Positions 2,707 through 17,495 of a stretch of 23,013 bases of DNA are shown in pieces. This stretch comes from a virus. The first letter of the stretch is position 1; the number at the start of each line of letters is the position of its first letter. Under the pieces are notes generated by a model. That model did no database searches and was not told the origin of the DNA. It saw nothing but the letters and a program-made list of their open reading frames with translations. The stretch covers positions 1 through 23,013 of the IMG/VR virus record IMGVR_UViG_3300044682_000014; one strand, written 5' to 3'. The translations under genes and the position numbers were made by a program.

Positions 2707-2997
2707 ATGAAAATCGATATTCAAATAAACGAATTCAGTCCCAGCGATCCTGTACGTGTTGGGAATGTCTACCCTATTAAGGGAGGAAGAGGAATACGCG
2801 AAAAACATATGCAGATACTTATTGCTATGTCAGAAGCACGTGAGTATCATGGCATACACTGTCTGATGCTTGTTGTTACTAAGGAGGGGAAACCTATAGG
2901 AGTAAATGATTATGCGCTACACTATGTCGAAGAGCTTCAGCCGATTGCTTTTGTGGATGGATTAGAGGACATGACGCTAGTAATGCGATCACTATGA
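2707..2997 (+). CDS. 96-aa unknown protein lying between the exonuclease and polymerase genes
   Basis: ATG at 2707 lies 9 nt after GAGGG (2693-2697) and just after the upstream TGA; its own TGA overlaps the polymerase ATG (ATGA at 2994-2997). The product begins MKIDIQINEFSPSDPVRVG, has a basic glycine-rich turn (YPIKGGRGIREKHMQ) and then strand-like segments (ILIAMSE, LMLVVTKEGKPIGV). It vaguely recalls small accessory phage proteins with a 'VGDVYPxKGGRG' start. It has no HNH, GIY-YIG or LAGLIDADG motif, so it is not an obvious homing endonuclease. Hand-counted GC is about 42% (121 of 291), against about 57-60% in the first 120 bp downstream. It interrupts what is usually one continuous exonuclease-polymerase gene. 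Confidence 0.75.
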   Translation: MKIDIQINEFSPSDPVRVGNVYPIKGGRGIREKHMQILIAMSEAREYHGIHCLMLVVTKEGKPIGVNDYALHYVEELQPIAFVDGLEDMTLVMRSL

Positions 2998-4499
2998 AAA
3001 TCATCCGCACCCATGAAACCAGCCCCACTTCCCTTTCCGAATGGGAACGGGACCAAGTCTACAACGGCCTCGACTGTTGCGTCACCCGTGAAGTCTTCGA
3101 CGTAATCCATCCCGGCCTCGATAACCATACCGCCGCGACTTACGCATTCTCCAAAGACCTACAAGGGCCGGCCTTAGAGATGCGACTTCGCGGGGTTCTC
3201 GTCGATACCGCCCGCCGCGCTGAGGTCATCGACGAGATGCACGACCGCCTTGATAAACTTGAGCGGAACCTTGATCTGATCGTACTTGATGGCGTCGGTG
3301 CGGTTAAGTTCAATTGGCGAAGTAACGAAGACTTGAAGGAGATTTTCTATGGCAAACTTGGTATCCCGGAAATCAAAAGCAAGGGCCGCGTTAGTGTCGA
3401 TGTCAATGCTCTTGGTAAGCTTGAGCAGTACCTTATCGCAAGGCCGATCGTTTACCATATCACCGCGATGCGAGAATTGGGAAAGCGTATTGGTGTGCTT
3501 CGAACCCCATTGGACACAGACGGGAGGATGCGAACTAGCTATAACATCGCTGGCACCAATACCGGACGCTTTTCGTCCTCTGGTTCCGAATTTGGAACCG
3601 GAGGAAATCTACAAAACGTGGAAGAATCTCTGCGATCCATCTTCATCCCCGACCCAGGAATGAAGTTTGCGAAGTTTGATGCGAAGTCAGGCGAGTCATT
3701 CGTTGTTGGTGCAATAGAATGGAATCTGTTCAATGACCCAACCTACCTCGAAGCCTGTGAGTCTGGGGACCCTCATACAGCTGTTGCTCGTATCTGCTGG
3801 CCTGGATTGGGATGGACAGGAAACCTCCGTCTTGATAAAGAAATCGCAGAAAGACCATATTACCGACATTACTCTTACCGCTTCATGTGCAAAAAGCTCG
3901 GTCACGGTTCAAATTACGGCGGACAGCCTTTTACCCTTGCTCAACAATCCCACCTCCCCATCGGAGTTGTCCAACAATTCCAACCAAAATACTTCGACGC
4001 CTTCCCAGCCCATCGACGTTGGCAGGATTGGGTCGCTGATCAACTCCTTAGATATGGATATCTCGTCAATCTCACAGGCCGTAAACGCTGGTTCATGGGG
4101 CGGCGTAATGACGCAGCTACGCTGCGTGAAGCAATCGCTTATGATCCTCAGGGGTCTCTTGCCGACATCGTAAATCGTGCTATGCTCCGCATTTGGCATG
4201 CACGCGATGCAGCCCTCATGATGCATGACCACGATGCCCTAACAATCCAATACCCGGAGGAACGCGAAGATGAAATCATTCCCAAGATCATGGCGATTCT
4301 TACAGAGACTATCGAACTGGATCGCGGACGAACTTTACGAATATCATACGACTGTAAAGTCGGTTGGAACAAAGGAGACTACGACAAAGATCATCCTGAA
4401 CGCAACCCCCAAGGGCTAAAAGATTATGTCCCCAACGATAAACGGAAGCGGGAAGCGCGTCCTCACCTCTTGGATCGACCGCTACATCGAGTTAACTAG
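2994..4499 (+). CDS. polA-like: Family A DNA polymerase (polymerase domain plus Exo III motif)
   Basis: A 501-aa protein. Motif A lies at FAKFDAKSGES with Asp229. Motif B is RFMCKKLGHGSNYG, with Arg296, Lys300 and Tyr308 in the same spacing as R754, K758 and Y766 of E. coli Pol I. Motif C is MMHDHDAL with Asp412 (D882 equivalent). TNTGRFSSSG and NLQNV match the conserved region before motif A. The first 30 residues hold YNGLD (Tyr23, Asp27), the Exo III motif that belongs to the exonuclease domain encoded upstream. The F762 position is His304 and the E883 position is His413. ATG overlaps the stop of the 96-aa gene (ATGA) without a clear ribosome binding site, so translation is probably coupled. 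The 3' end overlaps the next gene by 74 bp. Confidence 0.93.
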   Translation: MKIIRTHETSPTSLSEWERDQVYNGLDCCVTREVFDVIHPGLDNHTAATYAFSKDLQGPALEMRLRGVLVDTARRAEVIDEMHDRLDKLERNLDLIVLDGVGAVKFNWRSNEDLKEIFYGKLGIPEIKSKGRVSVDVNALGKLEQYLIARPIVYHITAMRELGKRIGVLRTPLDTDGRMRTSYNIAGTNTGRFSSSGSEFGTGGNLQNVEESLRSIFIPDPGMKFAKFDAKSGESFVVGAIEWNLFNDPTYLEACESGDPHTAVARICWPGLGWTGNLRLDKEIAERPYYRHYSYRFMCKKLGHGSNYGGQPFTLAQQSHLPIGVVQQFQPKYFDAFPAHRRWQDWVADQLLRYGYLVNLTGRKRWFMGRRNDAATLREAIAYDPQGSLADIVNRAMLRIWHARDAALMMHDHDALTIQYPEEREDEIIPKIMAILTETIELDRGRTLRISYDCKVGWNKGDYDKDHPERNPQGLKDYVPNDKRKREARPHLLDRPLHRVN

Positions 4500-6603: not shown

Positions 6604-9600
6604 TTATTTTGGCACCTCACTATGTACCCAATCGCTGAATGATTTGGTATGTCCTTTAGTCTGGCCGTATCGTAATCCAACTGTTTCTTGCCACGGCCCA
6701 GCTGGGTGTTCCTCCCCATGTTCTTCATCCCAAAGAAACTTTCCTGCATTACCTAAGGTTTGGTTGCCTACTCCAGTCAACAACCCCATCAACCCAGTAA
6801 AATGCTTGATAAAATTTCCAGCGGTATGGGGCGTAAACGCTCTATGTGAAGCGATATCGCGAATGGGATCAGAGATTTCTTTCATTGTAGCCGACAATAA
6901 CCCACCTTCTGGGTCACGCCCATTCAAGAGGGCATAAAGTAAATCCTTTACCGGGATGAAGCCACTACCAATCGCACCAGCAATGAGATTCATTCCTGTT
7001 TTAGTATAAGATTCTTTCTTATTCCCTGTACTAGAAAATAACATGTCAATCGTGGACGGTAAAATAGATGCGGTGAAGAATAATCCAGCGGCTATCTTAG
7101 CATTCCTCATTGACGAATCGGTAAGACCGCCTTTATAATTAGAGTACGCATCCTTAATGCGCCAAGCGGTTTCATATTGTTTCTGAAAATTCTCACTGAA
7201 GAAATTATAAAACAGAGTCCACCAACTAGCGAGACCGCTCGATCGTGCGATACCGGATTTATTCACAAATACCGATGACCCATGCGTTTGCCTAACGAAT
7301 CGATCCGCAAGAGACACAGCATCACCCTCCGACGCACCTTCGGCAACGGCCTTTTTATATGTCGCAAGCCACGCGGGGACAGATGACATCATATCAAAGA
7401 AGCCAATTGGATAACTACCAAGCCATTGCGATACGCTACGAATATTATTCATTATTGACAAAGTGTTACTCCGATAATTTCCTACCGATATTTGTTGACG
7501 AGTTGCTATGTCCTGGAAGTTCTTGAACCTGCGAGCGAGTTCATCACTCCTTCTCATTGCCATAGCCCAGTTTCGTTCCCCTGAACCATCCTTCATTTGT
7601 AGCGTAGCAAGCTCCCGGCTAAACGCTATCGGCATACTTAAAAAGGATTTAGCCGCTGCCGTCAATCCATGCTTGGCAATTGTTCCGGGGTTAGCGCCGA
7701 TTAATGTCGAAGCCATATTACTTCGAAAATAGTCCGAGACTCGCGATGCCCAGGCTTCATAAGAACTGTCATAGTTTTGTCTATTTGCTATATACGAAGC
7801 CCAATCCTTCAACTCATTATATGGATGTTCGCCGTAATGATGCTGCACCGCACTGGCAAATTCCTTATCGAATACGATCTTACTGATCTGATTGATCGCC
7901 GGGCGCATTGCAATATCATGGATCATCTGTGATATACGCGTAGGTATAATCTCTAGACCGAGAGGGATTTGGTAGACCGCATCGGTTCGCGCTTTGGCGT
8001 ACCCCGGTGTCTGTGGGGCGTCTGATCTGAGATAGCCCTTTTGTAACAACGCCTCTTTATCTCGTCGAATTCCGTATTGATTATCAAGAGAGTCTTCGTG
8101 TAAAGGATGATACCAACCATCCACTTCCCCGTGTGGTGTCTGCACTTTCCCCACATCGATTCTATCAATTCCGCGGTTATTATTTTCGTGACGAGACATG
8201 ACATCAGCATGGTCCAGGAGCTCATCAAAAATCTTCCCGAACTTTTGTGCCCGAGTAACTGCGGCTTTAGCTCCACCTGGCTCTTTCTCTAATTGATCCC
8301 ATAGCCACTTCATACCGACAGCTTCGTTGATTCGATACCCTTCAAATAACTTGGCTCGATTTCCGACGTTGCCGACATTCTGTAGGATTGACATTAAATG
8401 GCCACGATTGAGATCGTAAAGATTTCCTGTTTTATCTTTCCAAAGGTTATTTTCTATCTTCTTTCCAAGGTGCCCTATATCGCTCATAGCGTCACTAAAT
8501 TTACCGTTGTATTCTTTCGCTAGCCTATCGATATAGTTCGCTCCTTCTATAGCTGGCCGAAAGATTGTTTGGTTAAAGTTACCAAACCAATCACCTTTAT
8601 CGATCCGATTCGTGAACGATTCCGTATTGATATGGCGCCAAAAGGTTGCAGTGACGAATTGTCCCACAGTCTGCCGTTCGGCCGGATTTGGGTTGTACTT
8701 CTTTGGTGGACCCAAGTCAGCAAGCTGTTTCTTCATATCATTAATAAGCTCTTGCCGATCTACTCGCTCACCGCCTTTCCAGATTGTCATCTCATTACGC
8801 GCGTTCGTATCAAGATCGCGCATGAAGTCAGTTAGGTTAATAAACTCAGTCCCGGTAAGTTGATTAATGCTACGATTGAACCCTGAGTCTTGCAGAAAAT
8901 CAGGCGGAAACAGACTACGTCCCTGCCGGCCCTTACTAAACACGAAATCATTAATCGTAGCATATCCGTTTTTCAGCATTGAACGTTCAGCGTTCGTTAG
9001 GCTTCGCTTCGTGCGTTCGCCAATATTATTTAATAACGTGTGCATTACGTCTACATATTCCGGATCGCGCCCCTTTAGCTTTGGTGCGTCCGCGAGGCGG
9101 TTATAGAGTTTTTGTATCTTCTTAAATTGCTCTCCGGCCTTCTCAACTTTCATCGCCTCCCTGGCCATAGCGATGTTGAAATAATGTTGCTGACGTAAGC
9201 GAAATGCTTCACCTGGATCATTCTTAAGTAACGCTTCCTCGACTCCGCGCATGGCCCGCCCAGCGGTAGCCAACAACTTATCAGAAGAGATTCGGGGATA
9301 TAGCATATCCCCGACCATTTTCTTCGCAGCCGCTTGCACATCTTGTCGAGTAAAAGGGAGCTTTGGGTCACCAGGGCGAATTTGTGATAGTGCCTCTTCA
9401 AGTTGTGCGTGTAGGATGTCTAACTGCGTAATTGAAAGAATCTGATCCTTTGCGGCTTCGATAATATTTTGATCCAACTTACCGTACCGCGCCTGCATTC
9501 GAGATTCAGTTTCGGCATCAATAATGCCTCTCATATGCTCCTTCGGCGCCATTGTTCCGCGCTCAGCCGCAACACTTTGGAGGTCACGGATCATCGCGTC

Positions 9601-11988
9601 GCCAGAGTCGTAACCGAATATTTTACCAACGGCATCCGGGTCCTCTCCCCCACGCGTAATGTATTCCTTCGGCAAACCTTCCCGCTGAGAATCTGTCAGC
9701 GAATCGGCATCGAGCTTAAGTTTGCCTTCCCGCAAAGCTTTATCAGCCATATAACGAGGTTGTTGCGCTACTTCAGTCGCTACTTCTTCTCGAACCTCGG
9801 CTTTATTCTTATTCCACTCCGGGGTTTGGCGCTTACGCTCATCGGCAACGGCACGGCGTAAGGTCGCTTCATCGTACTCAGATTTTTGCTTTTCTATTAA
9901 AGTCATGTAACGTCTATGTAGGACTTCCTTAAGATCGATCGCCTTTCCGCTAGCGAGCGGTGAAGTTAATGGCTGTTCTACTCGAGGTTCCCTTGGAGTA
10001 GGCGGCTCAATTGGGGTCTTAATCGGCTCCCCAATTCGTCTGCCTGCCTCCTCAATCAAATCCCCGTGCCAATTCTTTTTCATAAAGGCATCGACTTCTT
10101 TAGTCAAGTCGATGTACCCGGTAACACGTTCATAAATCATCCGCCATGCATTAGCGATGCCTTTGAAAAACTTCTCAACAATGCCTTGAGGTTCAATCTT
10201 TTGTGTAATAAATCGCGACACCTGTTCCGCAAACCATTCGGAAAAGAGGTTATTATACGGCGTAACAGTACGCTCTTTTCCTGCCATGTCAATAGTAGAA
10301 ACTGGCCGATCCTGCTCCCATGTACGTTTTTCACGTCCACGCAGGGAGTCTTTCCAAGCTTGTTGTATTGCTTGCTTCACATCGTCTGTTTCATGGTCAA
10401 GTTTTTGATATTCCATCTGATGGCCAAATTCATGAATGGCGACGTTTACCGCTGCATTTTTACCTAGATCAGAACGTATAACAATATCGCCTGTGTGCCA
10501 ACTTGCTCCAAGAGTCCTTGCTCCCGGAATATTTTCACCTGCCCAAAGAATTGGCTTTGTTTGTAGTCCTAATTTAGTTGCCAGCTCTTGTACAGTTGCA
10601 TCTACATGATCGAACCAATCTGGCAGTGGCCCAGTTCCTACTTCACGATTGCGTGCATTACTAAAGAGCTTCTCAAAACCCACTAGAGGAGTTGGGGTAC
10701 GGGCTTCTTCTGGGCCCGACAGTCCCGAAGCCTCGCGTAAGGAATTGACTGCGTCGGTGTGGGGATCGCCGGTTGGTTCGTTAACAACAGAGGGCTTCGG
10801 AACCTCTTCCCCCTTCGTGATCCCTTCCGGCCGAACCCGAATCCTATCCTCAATTGCTTTGAATACCTCCGGGTCCATATGCGCAAGTAAGTCCGCTGTC
10901 GGTACCTGCACATCGGACCCGGTTGCCTTCGCGAGTTCTAGTTGCGAAGCCATGTCCGAAACGAAGCCGAGAAGGTTATCCCCAGGTTCAGGGATTTTAT
11001 CACCGTAAAGCTTAGTCGCCGCCTCAGCCGAGACTCCAACCGTGTCCTCACCGAAATGTTGTTCCGCAAACTTTTGGAAATACTCCGGGGACCGTGCCAG
11101 AGTTGCGGATTTCTGTGAAGTCTTCATCGCCTCTTGAAGGGCTTTGAGGTCCGCGTCGGATTCGGCTTTATTCAGTTCATCGACTTTCGGGTCGACCCCA
11201 ACCGGAACCGACTTACCAGATTTGATGAACGGCTTTGCTTTCTGGGCGGCACGGGCGATATCATTTAGCTCCGGGGGAATATGCGGCTTTCCCATCTCCC
11301 CAGCCATCGCGACTTGGGCCATTGAGATAAGATCGCGGGTTAGATCGCCAGCGGTACCTGGGTGCCCCGTTATCTGTTGATACGCAGCTTGCCCACCAAA
11401 CTTCTCATAAGCAGTACCGATTCCACCCGCTACAGCGTCAATCACGCCGCTGAAGGCTTGATTGGTAACGGTTAATCCAAATGCGGCTGGGCCAAGAAGA
11501 GTATTAACAAAGCCACGCCATACCGGAGAATCAACTAAGTTATATAGTTGATTCGCTTGTTCTTTTTGTCCTTGCCAATCGAAGCCCTCGGAGAAGCCTT
11601 TTGAAATCGATTGTTGAACATCATAAGCCCCTGCTACTCCCCGTGCTAGACTCTGAAAAATTCCCGGCTTCGCCACCTTCCCCATCGCCTCACTCGCGGC
11701 GTCGAGGTTGGCATAGTCATCAGAAGAGACCTTCGCGGCCATCGGGTCGGAGAGGAGGTACCTACTGATCTGCGGATTATTCGCGGTGATATCCGCCGCG
11801 GCTTTGCTTTTAATTCTATCCTCAAACCCTTCTACGTCGTTGTGTACCAACGGCGCTGGGACCCCGGTAAGTTTACCGAGTTGTACCGCCCGAGCCGCCT
11901 CATCGGGGTTACCGCCAGTCGAAGCCGCTGCGAGTCCTTGGGGATTCCCAAAGACATCTTGGACTGATAACGGTTGAAGGTCACTCAC
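6604..11988 (-). CDS. Giant ejection/internal virion protein (gp16-like) with HExxH metalloprotease domain
   Basis: A 1794-aa protein starting at GTG (11986-11988), with a GTGA overlap to the upstream stop. The N-terminus (DEAARAVQLGKLTGVPAPLV, then LLSDPMAAKVSSDDY) is like that of other podovirus ejection proteins from memory. Residues ~435-600 hold a zincin-like domain: AVNVAIHEFGHQMEY with His519, Glu520 and His523, and 60 residues later SEWFAEQ with Glu584 and Glu588 as possible third ligand. HExxH plus a downstream Glu is the gluzincin pattern. Residues ~700-1250 are mostly helical and charged. The C-terminal part (LASWWTLFYNFFSEN, QYETAWRIKDAY, AGLFFTASILPSTIDML) resembles large polyvalent phage proteins (LPD38-like) and may insert in the membrane. 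It is last in the gp14-gp15-gp16-like order, which fits the ejectosome. No transglycosylase motif was seen. Confidence 0.85.
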   Translation of the reverse strand: MSDLQPLSVQDVFGNPQGLAAASTGGNPDEAARAVQLGKLTGVPAPLVHNDVEGFEDRIKSKAAADITANNPQISRYLLSDPMAAKVSSDDYANLDAASEAMGKVAKPGIFQSLARGVAGAYDVQQSISKGFSEGFDWQGQKEQANQLYNLVDSPVWRGFVNTLLGPAAFGLTVTNQAFSGVIDAVAGGIGTAYEKFGGQAAYQQITGHPGTAGDLTRDLISMAQVAMAGEMGKPHIPPELNDIARAAQKAKPFIKSGKSVPVGVDPKVDELNKAESDADLKALQEAMKTSQKSATLARSPEYFQKFAEQHFGEDTVGVSAEAATKLYGDKIPEPGDNLLGFVSDMASQLELAKATGSDVQVPTADLLAHMDPEVFKAIEDRIRVRPEGITKGEEVPKPSVVNEPTGDPHTDAVNSLREASGLSGPEEARTPTPLVGFEKLFSNARNREVGTGPLPDWFDHVDATVQELATKLGLQTKPILWAGENIPGARTLGASWHTGDIVIRSDLGKNAAVNVAIHEFGHQMEYQKLDHETDDVKQAIQQAWKDSLRGREKRTWEQDRPVSTIDMAGKERTVTPYNNLFSEWFAEQVSRFITQKIEPQGIVEKFFKGIANAWRMIYERVTGYIDLTKEVDAFMKKNWHGDLIEEAGRRIGEPIKTPIEPPTPREPRVEQPLTSPLASGKAIDLKEVLHRRYMTLIEKQKSEYDEATLRRAVADERKRQTPEWNKNKAEVREEVATEVAQQPRYMADKALREGKLKLDADSLTDSQREGLPKEYITRGGEDPDAVGKIFGYDSGDAMIRDLQSVAAERGTMAPKEHMRGIIDAETESRMQARYGKLDQNIIEAAKDQILSITQLDILHAQLEEALSQIRPGDPKLPFTRQDVQAAAKKMVGDMLYPRISSDKLLATAGRAMRGVEEALLKNDPGEAFRLRQQHYFNIAMAREAMKVEKAGEQFKKIQKLYNRLADAPKLKGRDPEYVDVMHTLLNNIGERTKRSLTNAERSMLKNGYATINDFVFSKGRQGRSLFPPDFLQDSGFNRSINQLTGTEFINLTDFMRDLDTNARNEMTIWKGGERVDRQELINDMKKQLADLGPPKKYNPNPAERQTVGQFVTATFWRHINTESFTNRIDKGDWFGNFNQTIFRPAIEGANYIDRLAKEYNGKFSDAMSDIGHLGKKIENNLWKDKTGNLYDLNRGHLMSILQNVGNVGNRAKLFEGYRINEAVGMKWLWDQLEKEPGGAKAAVTRAQKFGKIFDELLDHADVMSRHENNNRGIDRIDVGKVQTPHGEVDGWYHPLHEDSLDNQYGIRRDKEALLQKGYLRSDAPQTPGYAKARTDAVYQIPLGLEIIPTRISQMIHDIAMRPAINQISKIVFDKEFASAVQHHYGEHPYNELKDWASYIANRQNYDSSYEAWASRVSDYFRSNMASTLIGANPGTIAKHGLTAAAKSFLSMPIAFSRELATLQMKDGSGERNWAMAMRRSDELARRFKNFQDIATRQQISVGNYRSNTLSIMNNIRSVSQWLGSYPIGFFDMMSSVPAWLATYKKAVAEGASEGDAVSLADRFVRQTHGSSVFVNKSGIARSSGLASWWTLFYNFFSENFQKQYETAWRIKDAYSNYKGGLTDSSMRNAKIAAGLFFTASILPSTIDMLFSSTGNKKESYTKTGMNLIAGAIGSGFIPVKDLLYALLNGRDPEGGLLSATMKEISDPIRDIASHRAFTPHTAGNFIKHFTGLMGLLTGVGNQTLGNAGKFLWDEEHGEEHPAGPWQETVGLRYGQTKGHTKSFSDWVHSEVPK

Positions 11989-13748
11989 TGTTTCGTTCCA
12001 CTACCAAGGGCCTTATTAAATAGATCGCGACGATACCACCTCTGAATTTCCTCATCGGTAGGGTCGCGGCCGAGGACTTGCTTAATCGCAGGGCGATTCT
12101 TCTCCGCGTATCCATCCGGAAGGTCCTCCACTTGGAATATCTTCTGATGATTCTGCCAATGATCTCCGAAGAGCGCGCCAGGCGTTGCGTGATCTTGCAA
12201 TAACGTTGTTGCGATTTTCACTCCATCCGCGGCAGATAAGACCTTACCAGAGACCTGATACTCGTGAACAATTTGTCCAAGGGCTCCCTTAAACTTATTA
12301 TAATCATCCGGGGTATCTTTACGAGATACCCCCGCACTCGACAACATACTACTTACTGATGGATTTCTCATTAATGATTCTAGGTTCGGATCATCCAGAG
12401 GTTTGTTAGTCTTAATAACTTGACTCTGTAATTCCACTGCGCGTTTACGATCACTTGCGGTGAGATCAATGTTACCAAGGTCGAGTTCACGAAACGCCGA
12501 AGTATCTTCGGAATGCGCCTGCCCGTAAATCTTCTGGAAGTTCGCAGTTCGTGCATCTGTTGGGACGTTACTCTCCTTCGTAGCCTGAGTGATCTCCATC
12601 TGCAATTTCAACAACGCGGTTCCGTTTGGTTTGTCCTTTGGCCCAGAGAGCGTATCAATCGCGGCCGCAACCTTCGAATCACTTGCGCGGAGGGCTTCGA
12701 TGCTCAACGCGGTCTTGCCAGACTCGATACCTTGTTGTAGAGCAGTTCGAACCGTATTCCAAGCGTCGTTCTGTGTGTTCTTCACGATCTCTTGATTATG
12801 AGCGTAATCTGACTCGATTTGGTTCCGGACGTAATCACCAATCAGTGGCTTATCCGGATAAGCTTCTTGGGCTTGCTTAATTCCTGCTGCTACTTGATCG
12901 CCGAGATTGGCATCCGGCATAGAGGCGGAGATACGTGACGCGACAGTCTTCGCTCCGACGGTGTAGGTTTTATTCGTAATCATCTCATCAGCGCGAGATA
13001 GGTCCTGGCCTATCATCTGTCCTTTTGTCTTATATCCTTGATAAGCCTGTTCCGCCTCGGCAACTTTACCGTCTCGAAGGAGTGCTTGGATTTGATCGAG
13101 ATAGACCCCGCTCCTAGCCGCCGCCACATTTACCGCGATGGCGTCGGGGCTTGACCCATTAATCGAACCATGAAATCTCTGTGCCTGTTCGTTTTGGGAT
13201 GCGGCCGCATCGACTTGACGTTGATTAGTTGGTTGAACCGTCGCGAGGTTCTTAGCTGCCGATGCTTGGGCGTTCGATGCCTCCAACGAATACTGTCGTA
13301 CCTGTTCACCCGAGTGTTGTGCAGCATTGAAGAATGTCCGTCCCATTGTCGAAAGGGATTCGTGATTGAAGTATTGCTGCGCCATCGGATTAGTCAAGGT
13401 CGATCCGACATCTTTACGAAGTTGTGAGACCTCTTGGCCATACTTAGCCAATGCATCGGGACCGGCATTTTCGCCGTATTGGGAAGTAAACTGCGCGTGC
13501 TTCACCGCAAGCTTTTGCATAAAGTCGGACGTGGCTTGATCCGCAACGCTTTGGTTGTGGAGTTCCTGCATCGCATTCGCGCGAGCAAATAATTCATTTC
13601 CAACCTGATCGCTGGTGGTTCCGAGAGTACTCAGCGCATGTCCGATATCCCCACCAAACGCCGCCAACGGAGTATCGACGTGGATATTTGGCGTCGGCTC
13701 AAACCGCGACGTAACATCAGGAATTGGTGTGTATGGGACCTGTGCCAT
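11985..13748 (-). CDS. Internal virion/ejection protein (gp15-like), long helical
   Basis: A 587-aa protein starting MAQVPYTPIPDVTSRFEPTP. After the Pro-rich start it is almost all helical, rich in Ala, Gln, Asp and Lys, with coiled-coil stretches (QELHNQSVADQATSDFMQKL, QVRQYSLEASNAQASAA, VAEAEQAYQGYKTKGQMI). There is no membrane segment or enzyme motif. The C-terminus (LGRDPTDEEIQRWYRRDLF) is charged. Its length, composition and place between the gp14-like and gp16-like genes fit the internal core protein that forms the periplasmic ejection tube in T7-like phages. The ATG overlaps the upstream TAA by one base (TAATG), and the stop overlaps the next gene by 4 bp, so the three ejection genes are translationally linked. 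Confidence 0.8.
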   Translation of the reverse strand: MAQVPYTPIPDVTSRFEPTPNIHVDTPLAAFGGDIGHALSTLGTTSDQVGNELFARANAMQELHNQSVADQATSDFMQKLAVKHAQFTSQYGENAGPDALAKYGQEVSQLRKDVGSTLTNPMAQQYFNHESLSTMGRTFFNAAQHSGEQVRQYSLEASNAQASAAKNLATVQPTNQRQVDAAASQNEQAQRFHGSINGSSPDAIAVNVAAARSGVYLDQIQALLRDGKVAEAEQAYQGYKTKGQMIGQDLSRADEMITNKTYTVGAKTVASRISASMPDANLGDQVAAGIKQAQEAYPDKPLIGDYVRNQIESDYAHNQEIVKNTQNDAWNTVRTALQQGIESGKTALSIEALRASDSKVAAAIDTLSGPKDKPNGTALLKLQMEITQATKESNVPTDARTANFQKIYGQAHSEDTSAFRELDLGNIDLTASDRKRAVELQSQVIKTNKPLDDPNLESLMRNPSVSSMLSSAGVSRKDTPDDYNKFKGALGQIVHEYQVSGKVLSAADGVKIATTLLQDHATPGALFGDHWQNHQKIFQVEDLPDGYAEKNRPAIKQVLGRDPTDEEIQRWYRRDLFNKALGSGTKQ

Positions 13749-14308
13749 TAGAAGCCTGATCCGCCGCTAAGGGGATTGGAGTTAAACAACCCCGATTGCT
13801 GTCCCTGCAACCACTTACTCGACACGCTCCCGGCGGTGCCTAAGACCGAGCTCGCAATGCCAATATCCCCGGCGGTTGTTGCGTTGGTACTAGCGGCTTT
13901 GTAAGCGCTAGCTTGCTCCCCCGCCTGTGTAGCCCCGATATCGTAGTCGTAGGCGGTTTTGGCAGCGTTGGAATGGATAGCGGTCTGTTCGGTATCCCCG
14001 ACGAGTTGTTGACCTTTCCTAACATCGACGTTGGTCCCTGTGTTGACATTAAAACCGCTCGCGGCCTGCGCTGTGGTGATTTGGCCCATACGATACCGGG
14101 TGGCCATCCCAGACTGCGCGGCTTGGTTTTCCCCAGTTTGTAGAGAATACTCGGCGTTTTGTTTATCGATCAACTGATTCTGTTGAGCAATCCCTGCTTG
14201 GTAGTTGTACATCGCCGACTGCGAAGCCGCGGATGTTCCCGCGCCCACCGCAGAGGCAACACCGCCAGCGATCGTGGCGCCTATACCAATTGCTGCTGGG
14301 AGGGCCAT
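13748..14308 (-). CDS. Internal virion/ejection protein (gp14-like)
   Basis: A 186-aa protein. The N-terminus is hydrophobic and glycine/alanine-rich (AAIGIGATIAGGVASAVGAG), suited to insertion in a membrane. It is followed by a Gln/Ala-rich helical region (NYQAGIAQQNQLIDKQNAEY, NQAAQSGMATRYRMGQ) and a second small-residue stretch near the C-terminus (IGIASSVLGTAGSV). This matches T7 gp14, the ejection protein that forms the pore in the outer membrane. The motif GFNVNTGTNVDVRKGQ is typical of phage gp14-like proteins in my recollection. It is the first of the three contiguous ejection genes. Confidence 0.8.
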   Translation of the reverse strand: MALPAAIGIGATIAGGVASAVGAGTSAASQSAMYNYQAGIAQQNQLIDKQNAEYSLQTGENQAAQSGMATRYRMGQITTAQAASGFNVNTGTNVDVRKGQQLVGDTEQTAIHSNAAKTAYDYDIGATQAGEQASAYKAASTNATTAGDIGIASSVLGTAGSVSSKWLQGQQSGLFNSNPLSGGSGF

Positions 14309-14310
14309 GA

Positions 14311-14673
14311 CTAGGCCTTAATCGTGAAGGTTAGATATTTGCCATCTTGCCCGACGATCGTCGCCCCGAGCCATTGGAGCCAATGGGTCTCTTTTTCACA
14401 AAGGCCGACGAGAATCGGGTACTCTCCGAGCATCTTCGCGACCGCGATCTTTGACAGCTTCACGAAAGACTTTCGGCACTTAAGCACCTTTGGTGTGGTC
14501 CAAGACCAGATATAAGCGCTGTCGGATAGGAGACTAGCGGGAACGACACCCCATACGACGACAAGATCGCCGTTGAAGAACCCAGCCCAAATCTTCCCTG
14601 CCCCAAGGAACATTGGATCGAGCGCGTTGAGGATCGGATCAGTCGCGGCGATTTCTCGAACTTCCGCTGTCAT
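14311..14673 (-). CDS. gp13-like GNAT-fold phage protein (DUF2833-type)
   Basis: A 120-aa protein starting at the ATG at 14671-14673. GGAGAT lies about 5-10 nt before it, and it overlaps the nozzle gene's TGA (ATGA), so this start is much better than a longer in-frame one. Features are typical of the GNAT-like T7 gp13 family: a helical start (VREIAATDPILNALD), WAGFFNGDLVVVWGVV, an IWSWTTPKVLKC strand, helix SFVKLSKIAVAKML, and LVGLCEKETHWLQWLGA near the end. T7 gp13 is needed for assembly of the internal core. Its position between nozzle and gp14-like genes supports this. No acetyl-CoA loop is obvious, so catalysis is doubtful. Confidence 0.75.
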   Translation of the reverse strand: MTAEVREIAATDPILNALDPMFLGAGKIWAGFFNGDLVVVWGVVPASLLSDSAYIWSWTTPKVLKCRKSFVKLSKIAVAKMLGEYPILVGLCEKETHWLQWLGATIVGQDGKYLTFTIKA

Positions 14674-17495
14674 CTGGTATCTCCTACGGCTAGCTGTGGC
14701 ACCACTCCCGTAATCGTCGCGGGGTACGGCAACGATTGTTGAATACAAAACTGCCCTGCGGTCTGCCAAAGTGGATCGAGGAAAGTTCGGGCATCGCCGG
14801 TGACGAGTCCGGTTACGACCTCGTTTGTCATCGATCCAACGCTGCCAAGGATAAGGTCGTGCATAGGAACAAGATTATCAAAGCTGGTCCCGATTTCGAG
14901 CCCGAGGGTGTCGACCACACGGATGGTCGACGCTGGAATTTTCTTCATCTTTGCTTGAATCGTCGGTTCGCCGGTATCTATCGAGAGGGTTTGGAGTAAG
15001 GCGTTAAAGCCGAGACCGACCGTAACGGTAGTGTATCCAGTCGCTCCTGCCGGGGCCGGTAGGTTAAACTCGCCGTTAATTGGCATGGTGAATGGGGAAA
15101 TAACCGATACGTTTCCGAGATTGTCGGTGGCCAACCCTGTGACGGTACAAGCGGCCAAATGGGAAGCTCCTTCGAAGGCAAGAGTCGCGGTTCCGGAATA
15201 CTGGATGCCGGCATCGACACACCACGCATCGGAACCGGTCACGCTAAAACTTCGCTCGACGAATCGTTCGATATATTGCAAGGACTGCCCATTAATTTCC
15301 CTCTGCACAACAACGTAGACCGCATCGACTACGCCAGAAGGAACGGTCTCCACAACCGTCGCAACAGATTTGAAGTAACCAAGGGTATTGTGATGTGCCC
15401 ACGCGATGAACTCTTGCTCCTTCGCAAAGGTCAACGATAGCATTGTTCCATCGTTTCGAACCAGCCACACAATCTTGAACGGCGCTTGCGCCCAAGCCCA
15501 TTCGGTTAGTTCGTAGCCGAAAAATAGGTGTGACGCGATAACGGAGGTGTCGCTACCGGTAAAAACCTGCGCGTAGTAATTATAAGTGGCATTGCGTACA
15601 ACTGGCCCTTTTCCATCCACATAGAGTACATCATAGTTATTGAGTATAGGAGGCATGTCATTCGCCCCGTTGTTGCTTTGCCTATTTGCAACAATAGACG
15701 ACGGGGAGATCGCTGTTCCAAGACCACCTCCGTTGACAAGCCATAAGGCTTTGTCGGTGAATACAATAAGCCCTGGAGCGGTCGAGAGAAGGGACTTAAT
15801 CGTCTCGAGTTGCCCCGAAGCGAGCGTGACCGAAATCGCATCGTCCGCCTGGATTGGATTGGAGATATCGAAGTTATACGGCGCACCAGGCTGGGAGAAG
15901 TTTAACTCCCCAGGGGAATTATTCGGGGCAGCAAGGATAAGGCGCTGTTGATGGAAACCCGGAACTCCTGGCGGGTTTGTGCCAACCATGGAAATATATG
16001 CTGTGGCGGCTGCGCTACCAGAACTAAACACTACCGTAGGCGCTGCTGTATAACCTGCCCCGTCGATTATCACCGCGACATTGGTCACGCCCCATACGGC
16101 GTTGAAGGAGAACCCTGTACCGTGACCAGAGGTTGTGAGTTGTGTAATAGGATTCGTGGGGGTCGATCCTGCACCAAGGTTACCGGAGTTGGTTAGTATA
16201 ATCGTATTCACCGTGCCAAGTCCGGTCACGCCTGAGACAGTAAAGACCGCACCATTTGGAAGGGTTATAGTATCGCCGATATTGTAATCGCCCCCGCCTG
16301 ATGCTAAGGTTCCGCCGGGAACGATCCCGAGACTCGGAGCGATCGCCCCTGAGATAACGGCCGATCCCGACAAGGTCGCGGTTGGGACGGTTGTGTAGGC
16401 CCCTGGGGCGGTGACTGTTATTGACGTAAGCGAGCCACCGACAAACGGGTCCTGCGCAATCGGTGGGGTTTGGGAATAATCGGGATCGAGATTGCTATCA
16501 ATCAGCGACGTCCCAGCAGTATTCCCGATAAAGCCGTAGGGAATCCCGACTGGTAAGGTACCGAAGTACGAGACATCGGATTTATACCAGTTAAACGAAG
16601 CGGCACCGGGAGTGGCGTTACAGGTTAACGAGTTCGATCCGGCCACGGTCCGGAGATCTTGATATGCGGACAGAGATACTGGTGCAGATGCACCACTTTC
16701 CTCGCCATCAGCGGATACAGAGGTGACTTGATAGGAATAGTAAACCGTTCCGGCAGATAGCGTCGTCGTGACTGTGAGTCCACTTGGAGACTGCGCAGAG
16801 GTGCCGTAGGTTATTGGAAGGAGAGTCCAGACATCCGCGGATACGAGGGTTAAGACCTGTGCCGGGTAGTTAGAGTGGGTCAGAATCAACGCGTTGACGT
16901 TTTGGGTGTACTTAAGTAACGCAAGGTCCCCGGCTGCGTAAGGTGTCCCGATAATGTAGACCCGAGCCGCAGTCCCGCCGGAGGTATAGGTCCCGAACGC
17001 GGTGGAATCGACAGGATTTCCGAACAGGTCCGCGAGGGTTATTGTTGATCCGGTTGCGGAGGTGACTTGGTAGTAGTTGCCGTTAAGCTGCGTCATCCCA
17101 CCAACACCTTGGATAAAAATCCAATCGCCGAGGTGGTAGGAGTTGGTTGCGGATAGTACACAAGGGTTCGCGCGCGTTGCGCCGGTGATGTTAATCGGGG
17201 ACTGTAGAACTGGCGCGCCGTTGTTGAAGAAACGGATATAGCCTTGACCAAACTCGAGGATATAGGATACCGCAAAGGAGGCTTGGAAGGGGATCAGACG
17301 AATTGGGTAACCGGACTGGTAGCCTTGGAGAACGTATCGGGTCCCCATCCGTGTCGAAGCCCCGCCTCGGTAGTCTACAAAGAAATTCTCGAGTAACGCC
17401 GCGCCGGAGTGGTACTTCTCGATATCGACACGGCTATACAGTTGAGGAGCCCATTCCCCAGAGTTAAAGGATTTCTGCATTACGGGCTGGGCCAC
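14670..17495 (-). CDS. Tail tubular/nozzle protein (gp12-like, stabilization protein) with inserted beta modules
   Basis: A 941-aa protein starting at GTG (17493-17495) after AAGGA, 10 nt upstream. The start (KSFNSGEWAPQLYSRVDIEK, then ALLENFFVDYRGGASTRMGT) is the classic signature of podovirus nozzle proteins. The C-terminal half has the family blocks GFHQQRLILAA, NSPGELNFSQPG and VRNDGTMLSLTFAKEQE. Between them are inserted beta-rich segments: a fibronectin III-like stretch around residues 235-275 (YYSYQVTSVSADGEES) and two repeats with Y-T-x-x-P-T (GAYTTVPTATLSG, GAGYTAAPTVVFS) joined by Gly/Thr-rich loops. T7 gp12 is 794 aa, so this form is enlarged by surface insertions. The nozzle forms the DNA channel at the tail tip and carries fibre contacts. 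Confidence 0.88.
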   Translation of the reverse strand: MAQPVMQKSFNSGEWAPQLYSRVDIEKYHSGAALLENFFVDYRGGASTRMGTRYVLQGYQSGYPIRLIPFQASFAVSYILEFGQGYIRFFNNGAPVLQSPINITGATRANPCVLSATNSYHLGDWIFIQGVGGMTQLNGNYYQVTSATGSTITLADLFGNPVDSTAFGTYTSGGTAARVYIIGTPYAAGDLALLKYTQNVNALILTHSNYPAQVLTLVSADVWTLLPITYGTSAQSPSGLTVTTTLSAGTVYYSYQVTSVSADGEESGASAPVSLSAYQDLRTVAGSNSLTCNATPGAASFNWYKSDVSYFGTLPVGIPYGFIGNTAGTSLIDSNLDPDYSQTPPIAQDPFVGGSLTSITVTAPGAYTTVPTATLSGSAVISGAIAPSLGIVPGGTLASGGGDYNIGDTITLPNGAVFTVSGVTGLGTVNTIILTNSGNLGAGSTPTNPITQLTTSGHGTGFSFNAVWGVTNVAVIIDGAGYTAAPTVVFSSGSAAATAYISMVGTNPPGVPGFHQQRLILAAPNNSPGELNFSQPGAPYNFDISNPIQADDAISVTLASGQLETIKSLLSTAPGLIVFTDKALWLVNGGGLGTAISPSSIVANRQSNNGANDMPPILNNYDVLYVDGKGPVVRNATYNYYAQVFTGSDTSVIASHLFFGYELTEWAWAQAPFKIVWLVRNDGTMLSLTFAKEQEFIAWAHHNTLGYFKSVATVVETVPSGVVDAVYVVVQREINGQSLQYIERFVERSFSVTGSDAWCVDAGIQYSGTATLAFEGASHLAACTVTGLATDNLGNVSVISPFTMPINGEFNLPAPAGATGYTTVTVGLGFNALLQTLSIDTGEPTIQAKMKKIPASTIRVVDTLGLEIGTSFDNLVPMHDLILGSVGSMTNEVVTGLVTGDARTFLDPLWQTAGQFCIQQSLPYPATITGVVPQLAVGDTR

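Follow-up and report, generated by a model that had tools for sequence, protein, structure and literature searches.

A candidate zinc metallopeptidase in an exchange slot of a giant ejection-type phage protein

The virus record IMGVR_UViG_3300044682_000014, analyzed over its full length of 23,013 bases (hereafter the window), encodes as its largest open reading frame (ORF) a giant protein of 1,794 amino acids (aa; Table 1). Between two conserved blocks of this protein lies a zincin-like metallopeptidase domain in a slot whose content is exchanged among relatives: some carry a zincin of another type at the same place, and a few carry none. Wherever the domain is present its metal site is strictly conserved. 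We put the chances at about even that the domain is an active gluzincin-type zinc metalloprotease, the exchangeable cargo of a giant that is probably packaged and ejected, and that it acts mostly in trans.

By its domain content the giant is a phage-type polyvalent protein of a known kind, in which an N-terminal LPD22 domain is combined with a zincin-like metallopeptidase. The LPD22 match, well above the Pfam cut-off (Table 1), makes it a multidomain protein with an LPD domain, and it upholds the polyvalent character proposed in a preliminary description of the window; an HExxH motif, an invariant downstream glutamate and the expected core in a structural model provide the metallopeptidase. 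Pfam places no other family above its cut-off on the giant, and none for an RNA polymerase. The PHROGs family phrog_9880, of unknown function, matches residues 711–1778 (E 9.7e-111). The same description took the C-terminal region to be LPD38-like, a suggestion that we abandon: Pfam LPD38 gives no match there at E values up to 1, and none in 11 C-blocks of relatives resembling the giant of Bordetella phage BPP-1.

The metal site is invariant wherever the domain occurs

The motifs HEFGH and SEWFAE are located at residues 519–523 and 583–588, as first described. HExxH occurs once in the whole giant, where 0.05 occurrences are expected from composition. We aligned 21 giants over the region between the zincin and the C-terminus, the others being 16–33% identical to the window giant. 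Invariant columns number 10 of 2,150, and H519, E520, H523 and E584 are four of these. HExxH plus a downstream glutamate is thus a real gluzincin pattern among these relatives. H519, E520 and H523 are also invariant in 14 of 14 domains of the window's own zincin type (type III, below). Two glutamates had been offered as the third zinc ligand. E584 retains that role, being invariant in 21 of 21 giants; E588, kept in all 14 type III domains, was dropped on conservation, as other residues replace it in BPP-1-type sequences. We therefore predict that H519, H523 and E584 hold zinc and that E520 activates water.

Broader sampling used profiles that exclude the zincin, and yielded 144 loci from viral contigs. 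The 114 loci with at least 330 aa in frame upstream were counted and 30 were left out; those counted comprise 70 BPP-1-type and 44 window-type loci, or 92 clusters at 90% identity (53 BPP-1 type, 24 type I, nine type II and six without a zincin). Loci L142, L143, L167 and L183 are IMG/VR duplicates of L032–L035. HExxH lies upstream of the C-block in 108 of the 114, in the first stretch for 105 and further upstream for three (L078, L161, L167); when the residues of the same stretch are shuffled, a mean of 1.2 and a maximum of 4 loci of 114 contain the motif. Three further scans gave 68 loci, from which one without a match and 13 with too little upstream sequence were left out; all 54 remaining (22 clusters at 90%) carry HExxH. 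Scan A4, which belongs to the sampling of the 144 loci, retained the 80 top-ranking relatives out of at least 567, and the BPP-1-type sample consequently leans to close relatives. Among phage records, 36 match the C-terminal part of the giant, and all 19 of those opened encode a giant with HExxH. Within each zincin type the H, E, H and later Glu are conserved at 97% or more (70 BPP-1, 27 type I, 11 type II, 14 type III and seven N4 sequences).

Free loss of HExxH by homologs had been named as an observation that would speak against a protease. The motif itself does not decay, but the whole domain is absent from six window-type relatives, and so part of the family can do without the zincin. A metal site that is strictly kept whenever the domain is there, set against a domain that is otherwise cleanly missing, argues that the site is used. 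Pfam metallopeptidase families all stay under their cut-offs on the window domain, Peptidase_M90 scoring 15.7 bits against a cut-off of 26.2.

Some giants have an additional HExxH on the N-terminal side of the main zincin: HEVQH in phage AF (L039), and HEVLH in CP2 (L053) and Usaquen (L052). These are perhaps further metallopeptidase domains. Usaquen has an insertion after its second HExxH, and is left out of alignment A2, as are L043 and L050.

The predicted fold resembles a zincin core

An AlphaFold2 model of the zincin domain, built from 10 sequences, has a mean predicted local distance difference test score (pLDDT) of 73.3 and a predicted template modelling score (pTM) of 0.71. In model numbering it consists of a helix (37–50), three strands (58–64, 72–74, 79–83), a helix bearing HExxH (88–109) and a helix bearing E584 (160–173), the same succession of elements as Iyer et al. 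describe in polyvalent zincins (PMC5512222). Its best structural match is selecase (4qhi; Z 5.7 over 101 residues), which is weak, and most other top rows are peptidases or zincins such as Wss1, HtpX and abylysin, none of them strong. The model has the elements anticipated for a zincin core; its structural matches, mostly zincins, do not exceed Z 5.7. Searches of PDB sequences gave no peptidase among the matches of profile A1, one (FtsH, E 1.2) among eight rows for profile A3, and two rows, both the SprT-like protease Spartan (E 2.9–3), for the longer giant profile A2.

A metal site of this kind could instead serve other chemistry, as in an HExxH alpha-ketoglutarate-dependent oxygenase, or could be a noncatalytic site in a zinc-stabilized fold. 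One structural match of the model is to an oxygenase, ChlB, in its HExxH domain (Z 4.8 over 142 residues), the first Foldseek row is SjiH-Ni (E 0.48), and an invariant E520 is compatible with such a role as well. However, most of the remaining top matches are the peptidases listed above, and the elements follow the polyvalent zincin order; we consider this explanation very improbable.

The C-block was modeled separately (residues 641–1794; mean pLDDT 82.7). Neither Foldseek nor a second look with VIA found a clear match in the PDB, although VIA omits chains of more than 3,000 residues, such that the 3,500-residue chain of the phage N4 virion RNA polymerase could not have appeared. A stretch at about residues 1118–1405 weakly matches the PhiM1 ejectosome protein 8vb2 (Z 4.5, 215 residues, root-mean-square deviation 4.2). 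This is the sole phage row shown and is missed by the C-block sequence profile, and we judged it too weak to use. TALE-repeat proteins, the best PDB rows for that profile (E 0.0016), were taken as chance.

Zincins are exchanged between two conserved blocks

The N-block (residues 1–423) and the C-block (650–1794) are matched by blastp in all 44 window-type loci, with some of the N-block matches partial. Between them, 27 loci carry a type I zincin (HEAIH), 11 carry type II (HEAVH) and six have no zincin; type III, which fills the window slot, is found in none of the 44. The BPP-1-type loci, by comparison, have a single zincin type (70 of 70). The window slot is about 227 aa, roughly the size of the zincin domain itself. 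Because it holds little else, the zincin appears to be the cargo.

In the six zincin-less loci, six-frame ORFs give no zincin hidden Markov model match at E values up to 1 and no other convincing ORF with HExxH. The distance between the blocks, extrapolated from the blastp matches, ranges from about −18 aa (L146, an empty slot) to 620 aa, and the five shortest slots all belong to zincin-less loci. The sixth such locus, L187, has 392 aa in its slot, which matches ART-PolyVal weakly (21 bits, cut-off 31.2; L187:4648-6012). Elsewhere, the slot of L161 (L161:3910-6009) has a weak GNAT domain, below cut-off, beside its zincin.

Slot labels were placed on a quick C-block tree (LG+G4; 47 rows, four of BPP-1 type; L164 and L188 without a label). 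Five labels require at least 11 changes, where 4 is the minimum and shuffled labels average 18.6, and well-supported branches alone force eight changes for type I, three for type II and five for absence. On this tree the labels show some clustering and repeated change, with gain and loss indistinguishable. One sister pair consists of L142, with a type I zincin, and L145, without one. The anatomy of conserved blocks around a zincin-exchanging slot looks new for the window's subfamily; in the literature consulted, as far as its text was available, such proteins are not described as having a slot for exchangeable zincins.

These patterns bear on a second role for the domain, namely that it cuts its own giant, before packaging or after ejection, and so parts the C-block from the N-block with whatever cargo it may bear. 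Iyer et al. chiefly propose autoprocessing for such domains, and they report that P1 DdrB, in which they find one, undergoes proteolytic processing prior to packaging (PMC5512222). The BPP-1 giant has a predicted nuclease, PBECR1 (residues 643–729), shortly before its HExxH (at 797), and the universal presence of the zincin in the BPP-1-type group is the main point in favor of self-cleavage. In contrast, six of 44 window-type relatives have fused blocks and no zincin, including L187 with other slot cargo, from which it follows that self-cleavage between the blocks is not needed by all. The window slot, moreover, has no separate cargo to release, and the N4 virion RNA polymerase, which also has such a domain, is packaged unprocessed (PMC5512222). 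We regard autoprocessing as possible but doubtful.

Distant zincins fill the slot

Comparison by hhalign, in which each value refers to a single pair of alignments, relates type II to the zincin of the N4 polymerase at 97.5% (E 6e-12). Type I is related to type II at 87.8%, type III to type II at 59.7% and type III to N4 at 8.5%. Type III against the BPP-1 type gives 50.4% in one alignment set and 92% (E 6e-7) with another pair. The slot zincins are distant zincins whose origin is not necessarily independent. The N4-type zincin occupies the slot in L143, L147, L154, L168, L171, L175, L179, L202 and L203.

The nearest relatives of the window zincin are standalone proteins of about 750 aa from other uncultured phages (35–41% identical; nine aligned), with one further relative in a Bacteroidetes contig of a metagenome-assembled genome; the phages collection has none at E 0.01. 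The GC content at third codon positions (GC3) in the slot is 0.358, the minimum of sliding windows, compared with 0.532 and 0.442 in the flanks, which weakly supports transfer of the zincin.

Tentatively, the slot might be a dedicated one, where very distant zincins are swapped at a fixed site to deliver a host-matched protease before phage genes are expressed. Loss and exchange of zincins would then track host defenses, and the N4-type zincin, by its presence in this slot, would link these phages with the N4 polymerase, whose HExxH domain still awaits an explanation.

The giant is encoded in an ejection-type gene cluster

The 5′ end of the giant ORF shares four bases with the end of the preceding gene, and two genes further upstream match internal-virion-protein PHROGs (Table 1). 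The matches to the C-terminal part among phage records include BPP-1, Cobetia phage Carin1 and Pseudomonas phages HU1 and AF. In all four, the giant follows a gene whose annotation is structural lysozyme, lysozyme or endolysin, and in AF and BPP-1 the genes ahead of that one are annotated as internal virion proteins. LPD22 recurs in the giants of BPP-1, Carin1 and CP2, and PBECR nucleases in those of BPP-1 and Carin1. On the strength of LPD22, the internal-virion-protein neighbors and the gene order common to BPP-1, HU1 and AF, we place the giant among polyvalent proteins of ejection-type clusters, as the preliminary description had done. From this gene order we infer that virions probably carry the giant and eject it together with the genome.

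The gene preceding the giant bears on whether the zincin opens peptide cross-links so that an ejection tube can cross the cell wall. This gene encodes an SLT domain in BPP-1 (E 5.8e-15) and a VanY domain in L033 (E 2.8e-6), whereas no lytic domain is detected in that of the window, an observation in favor of such a role. Yet BPP-1 and L033 each carry a lytic domain and a zincin, and hence the zincin is no replacement for a lytic domain; substitution for a transglycosylase in particular is ruled out by BPP-1. L034 and L035 are like the window in having a zincin and no detected lytic domain, so that the overall picture is mixed. Most peptidoglycan peptidases have metal sites of other types. We find a peptidoglycan role very improbable. 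The preceding gene itself looks modular too (L033:3418-5604, L042:2803-4965 and 11985-13748 of the window).

Other features of these genomes were noted. A 941-aa tail-type protein of the window (14670-17495, minus strand) has a stretch resembling FCCH of ubiquitin-activating enzyme E1 (E 2.6e-6, slightly short of the cut-off), and a gene of Vibrio phage 1.185.O in the same cluster is likewise annotated as FCCH-type. DNA polymerase A functions are divided over two plus-strand ORFs: in 1599-2705 a uracil-DNA-glycosylase superfamily domain (E 3.9e-13) is joined with a 3′-5′ exonuclease domain (E 3.1e-9), and 2994-4499 has the polymerase domain (E 4.7e-33). Limnohabitans phage DC33 (L048, PQ492659.1) has a 39-kb genome with a BPP-1-type giant beside podovirus-like genes; the Inoviridae taxonomy of its record is probably a labeling error.

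Table 1. Features of the giant and its upstream neighbors in the window
Feature	Position	Strand	Basis or remark
Giant ejection-type polyvalent protein	6604..11988	-	ORF, 1,794 aa, GTG start; PHROG 9880; LPD22
N-block, residues 1-423	10720..11988	-	blastp to 44/44 window-type loci, irrespective of slot content
LPD22 domain, residues 24-97	11698..11919	-	Pfam PF18834, 50 bits against cut-off 28.6, E 3.6e-13
Exchange slot, residues ~424-649, zincin-filled here	10042..10719	-	Flanks kept in 44/44, content varies; boundaries approximate
HEFGH, residues 519-523	10420..10434	-	Predicted zinc ligands H519, H523; predicted catalytic base E520
SEWFAE, residues 583-588	10225..10242	-	E584 is predicted third zinc ligand
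C-block, residues 650-1794, mostly helical	6607..10041	-	blastp to 44/44; AlphaFold2; no clear solved relative
587-aa protein overlapping the giant's start	11985..13748	-	No transglycosylase found; BPP-1 gene at same place has one
186-aa internal virion protein, T7 gp14-like	13748..14308	-	phrog_418 E 1.5e-16; Pfam T7_gp14 weak, E 0.011
152-aa internal virion protein	14311..14769	-	phrog_308 E 2.5e-9

A proposed role in trans

If the giant is packaged and ejected with the genome as its gene order suggests, the zincin would enter the cell as a cargo of this phage, seated in the exchange slot between the conserved blocks. After ejection it would most likely cleave at least one protein in trans, either one of the host or perhaps a different component of the ejection apparatus, and cleavage of its own chain would not be its main role. 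Several observations weigh against this proposal. The zincin is universal in the BPP-1-type group (70 of 70, and 54 of 54 in the further scans), which fits built-in processing at least equally well, and it sits at the junction of two blocks, a natural place for self-cleavage. The structural matches are weak, with Foldseek reaching at best E 0.48 in the PDB and 0.022 in a viral library, and the low GC3 of the slot stands out modestly and does not prove that transfer was recent. Nonetheless, because some zincin-less relatives have fused blocks, because the zincin appears to be cargo and because its site appears to be used, we rate a protease acting in trans at even chances and autoprocessing lower.

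Natural zincin-plus, zincin-minus and zincin-swapped versions of one giant make a ready comparison, with matched pairs such as L142 and L145, and they establish that the two blocks can stand without the protease.

Comparison with known systems

Like T7 gp16-type ejection proteins, the giant is a large protein encoded beside a gp14-like gene, with phrog_418 and phrog_308 matches upstream. Unlike them, it has no transglycosylase family found by Pfam or PHROGs, and has a zincin instead. A review of ejection proteins stresses mosaic exchange of lytic domains, and a search of its main text finds neither “protease” nor “metallo” (PMC8954989); the available text of the PhiM1 ejectosome paper has no protease term either (PMC11440229).

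The standalone zincin proteins (L002-L011, L015, L016, L027, L031) share the zincin type of the window, but at 697–787 aa (open-frame lengths) they are too short for an N-block and a C-block together. Bbp10 of BPP-1 and its relatives agree with the window giant in gene order, LPD22, HExxH with a third Glu and C-block homology. They differ in that C-block identity to the window is about 16–20%, a single zincin type is present, and the preceding gene of BPP-1 has a transglycosylase.

The polyvalent proteins of Iyer et al. are likewise large multidomain phage proteins with an LPD domain, an HExxH and a Glu on the next helix, encoded in virion blocks (PMC5512222). Zincin-like metallopeptidases are their commonest domain, present in 12 clades, and either processing or host targeting has been proposed for them; the paper, in its available text, leaves undecided whether they cut their own chains or host proteins (PMC5512222). 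The window domain differs in falling under every Pfam metallopeptidase cut-off, and a slot that exchanges zincins is not described in the available text of that work.

A parallel in layout is the C-terminal part of the N4 virion RNA polymerase, where a zincin-type HExxH domain, C1, precedes a large helical domain of new fold, C2, in an ejected giant (PMC12633501, a preprint). The window giant has the same order of zincin and large helical domain, whereas no RNA polymerase is found in it and its C-block is not significantly related to C2 by hhalign, either with 21 sequences or with 66 (probability 1% and E 0.05 for the latter). The N4 zincin is matched by slot type II of window-type relatives and not by the type III of the window, and through them the HExxH domain of the N4 polymerase gains relatives in a protein without a polymerase.

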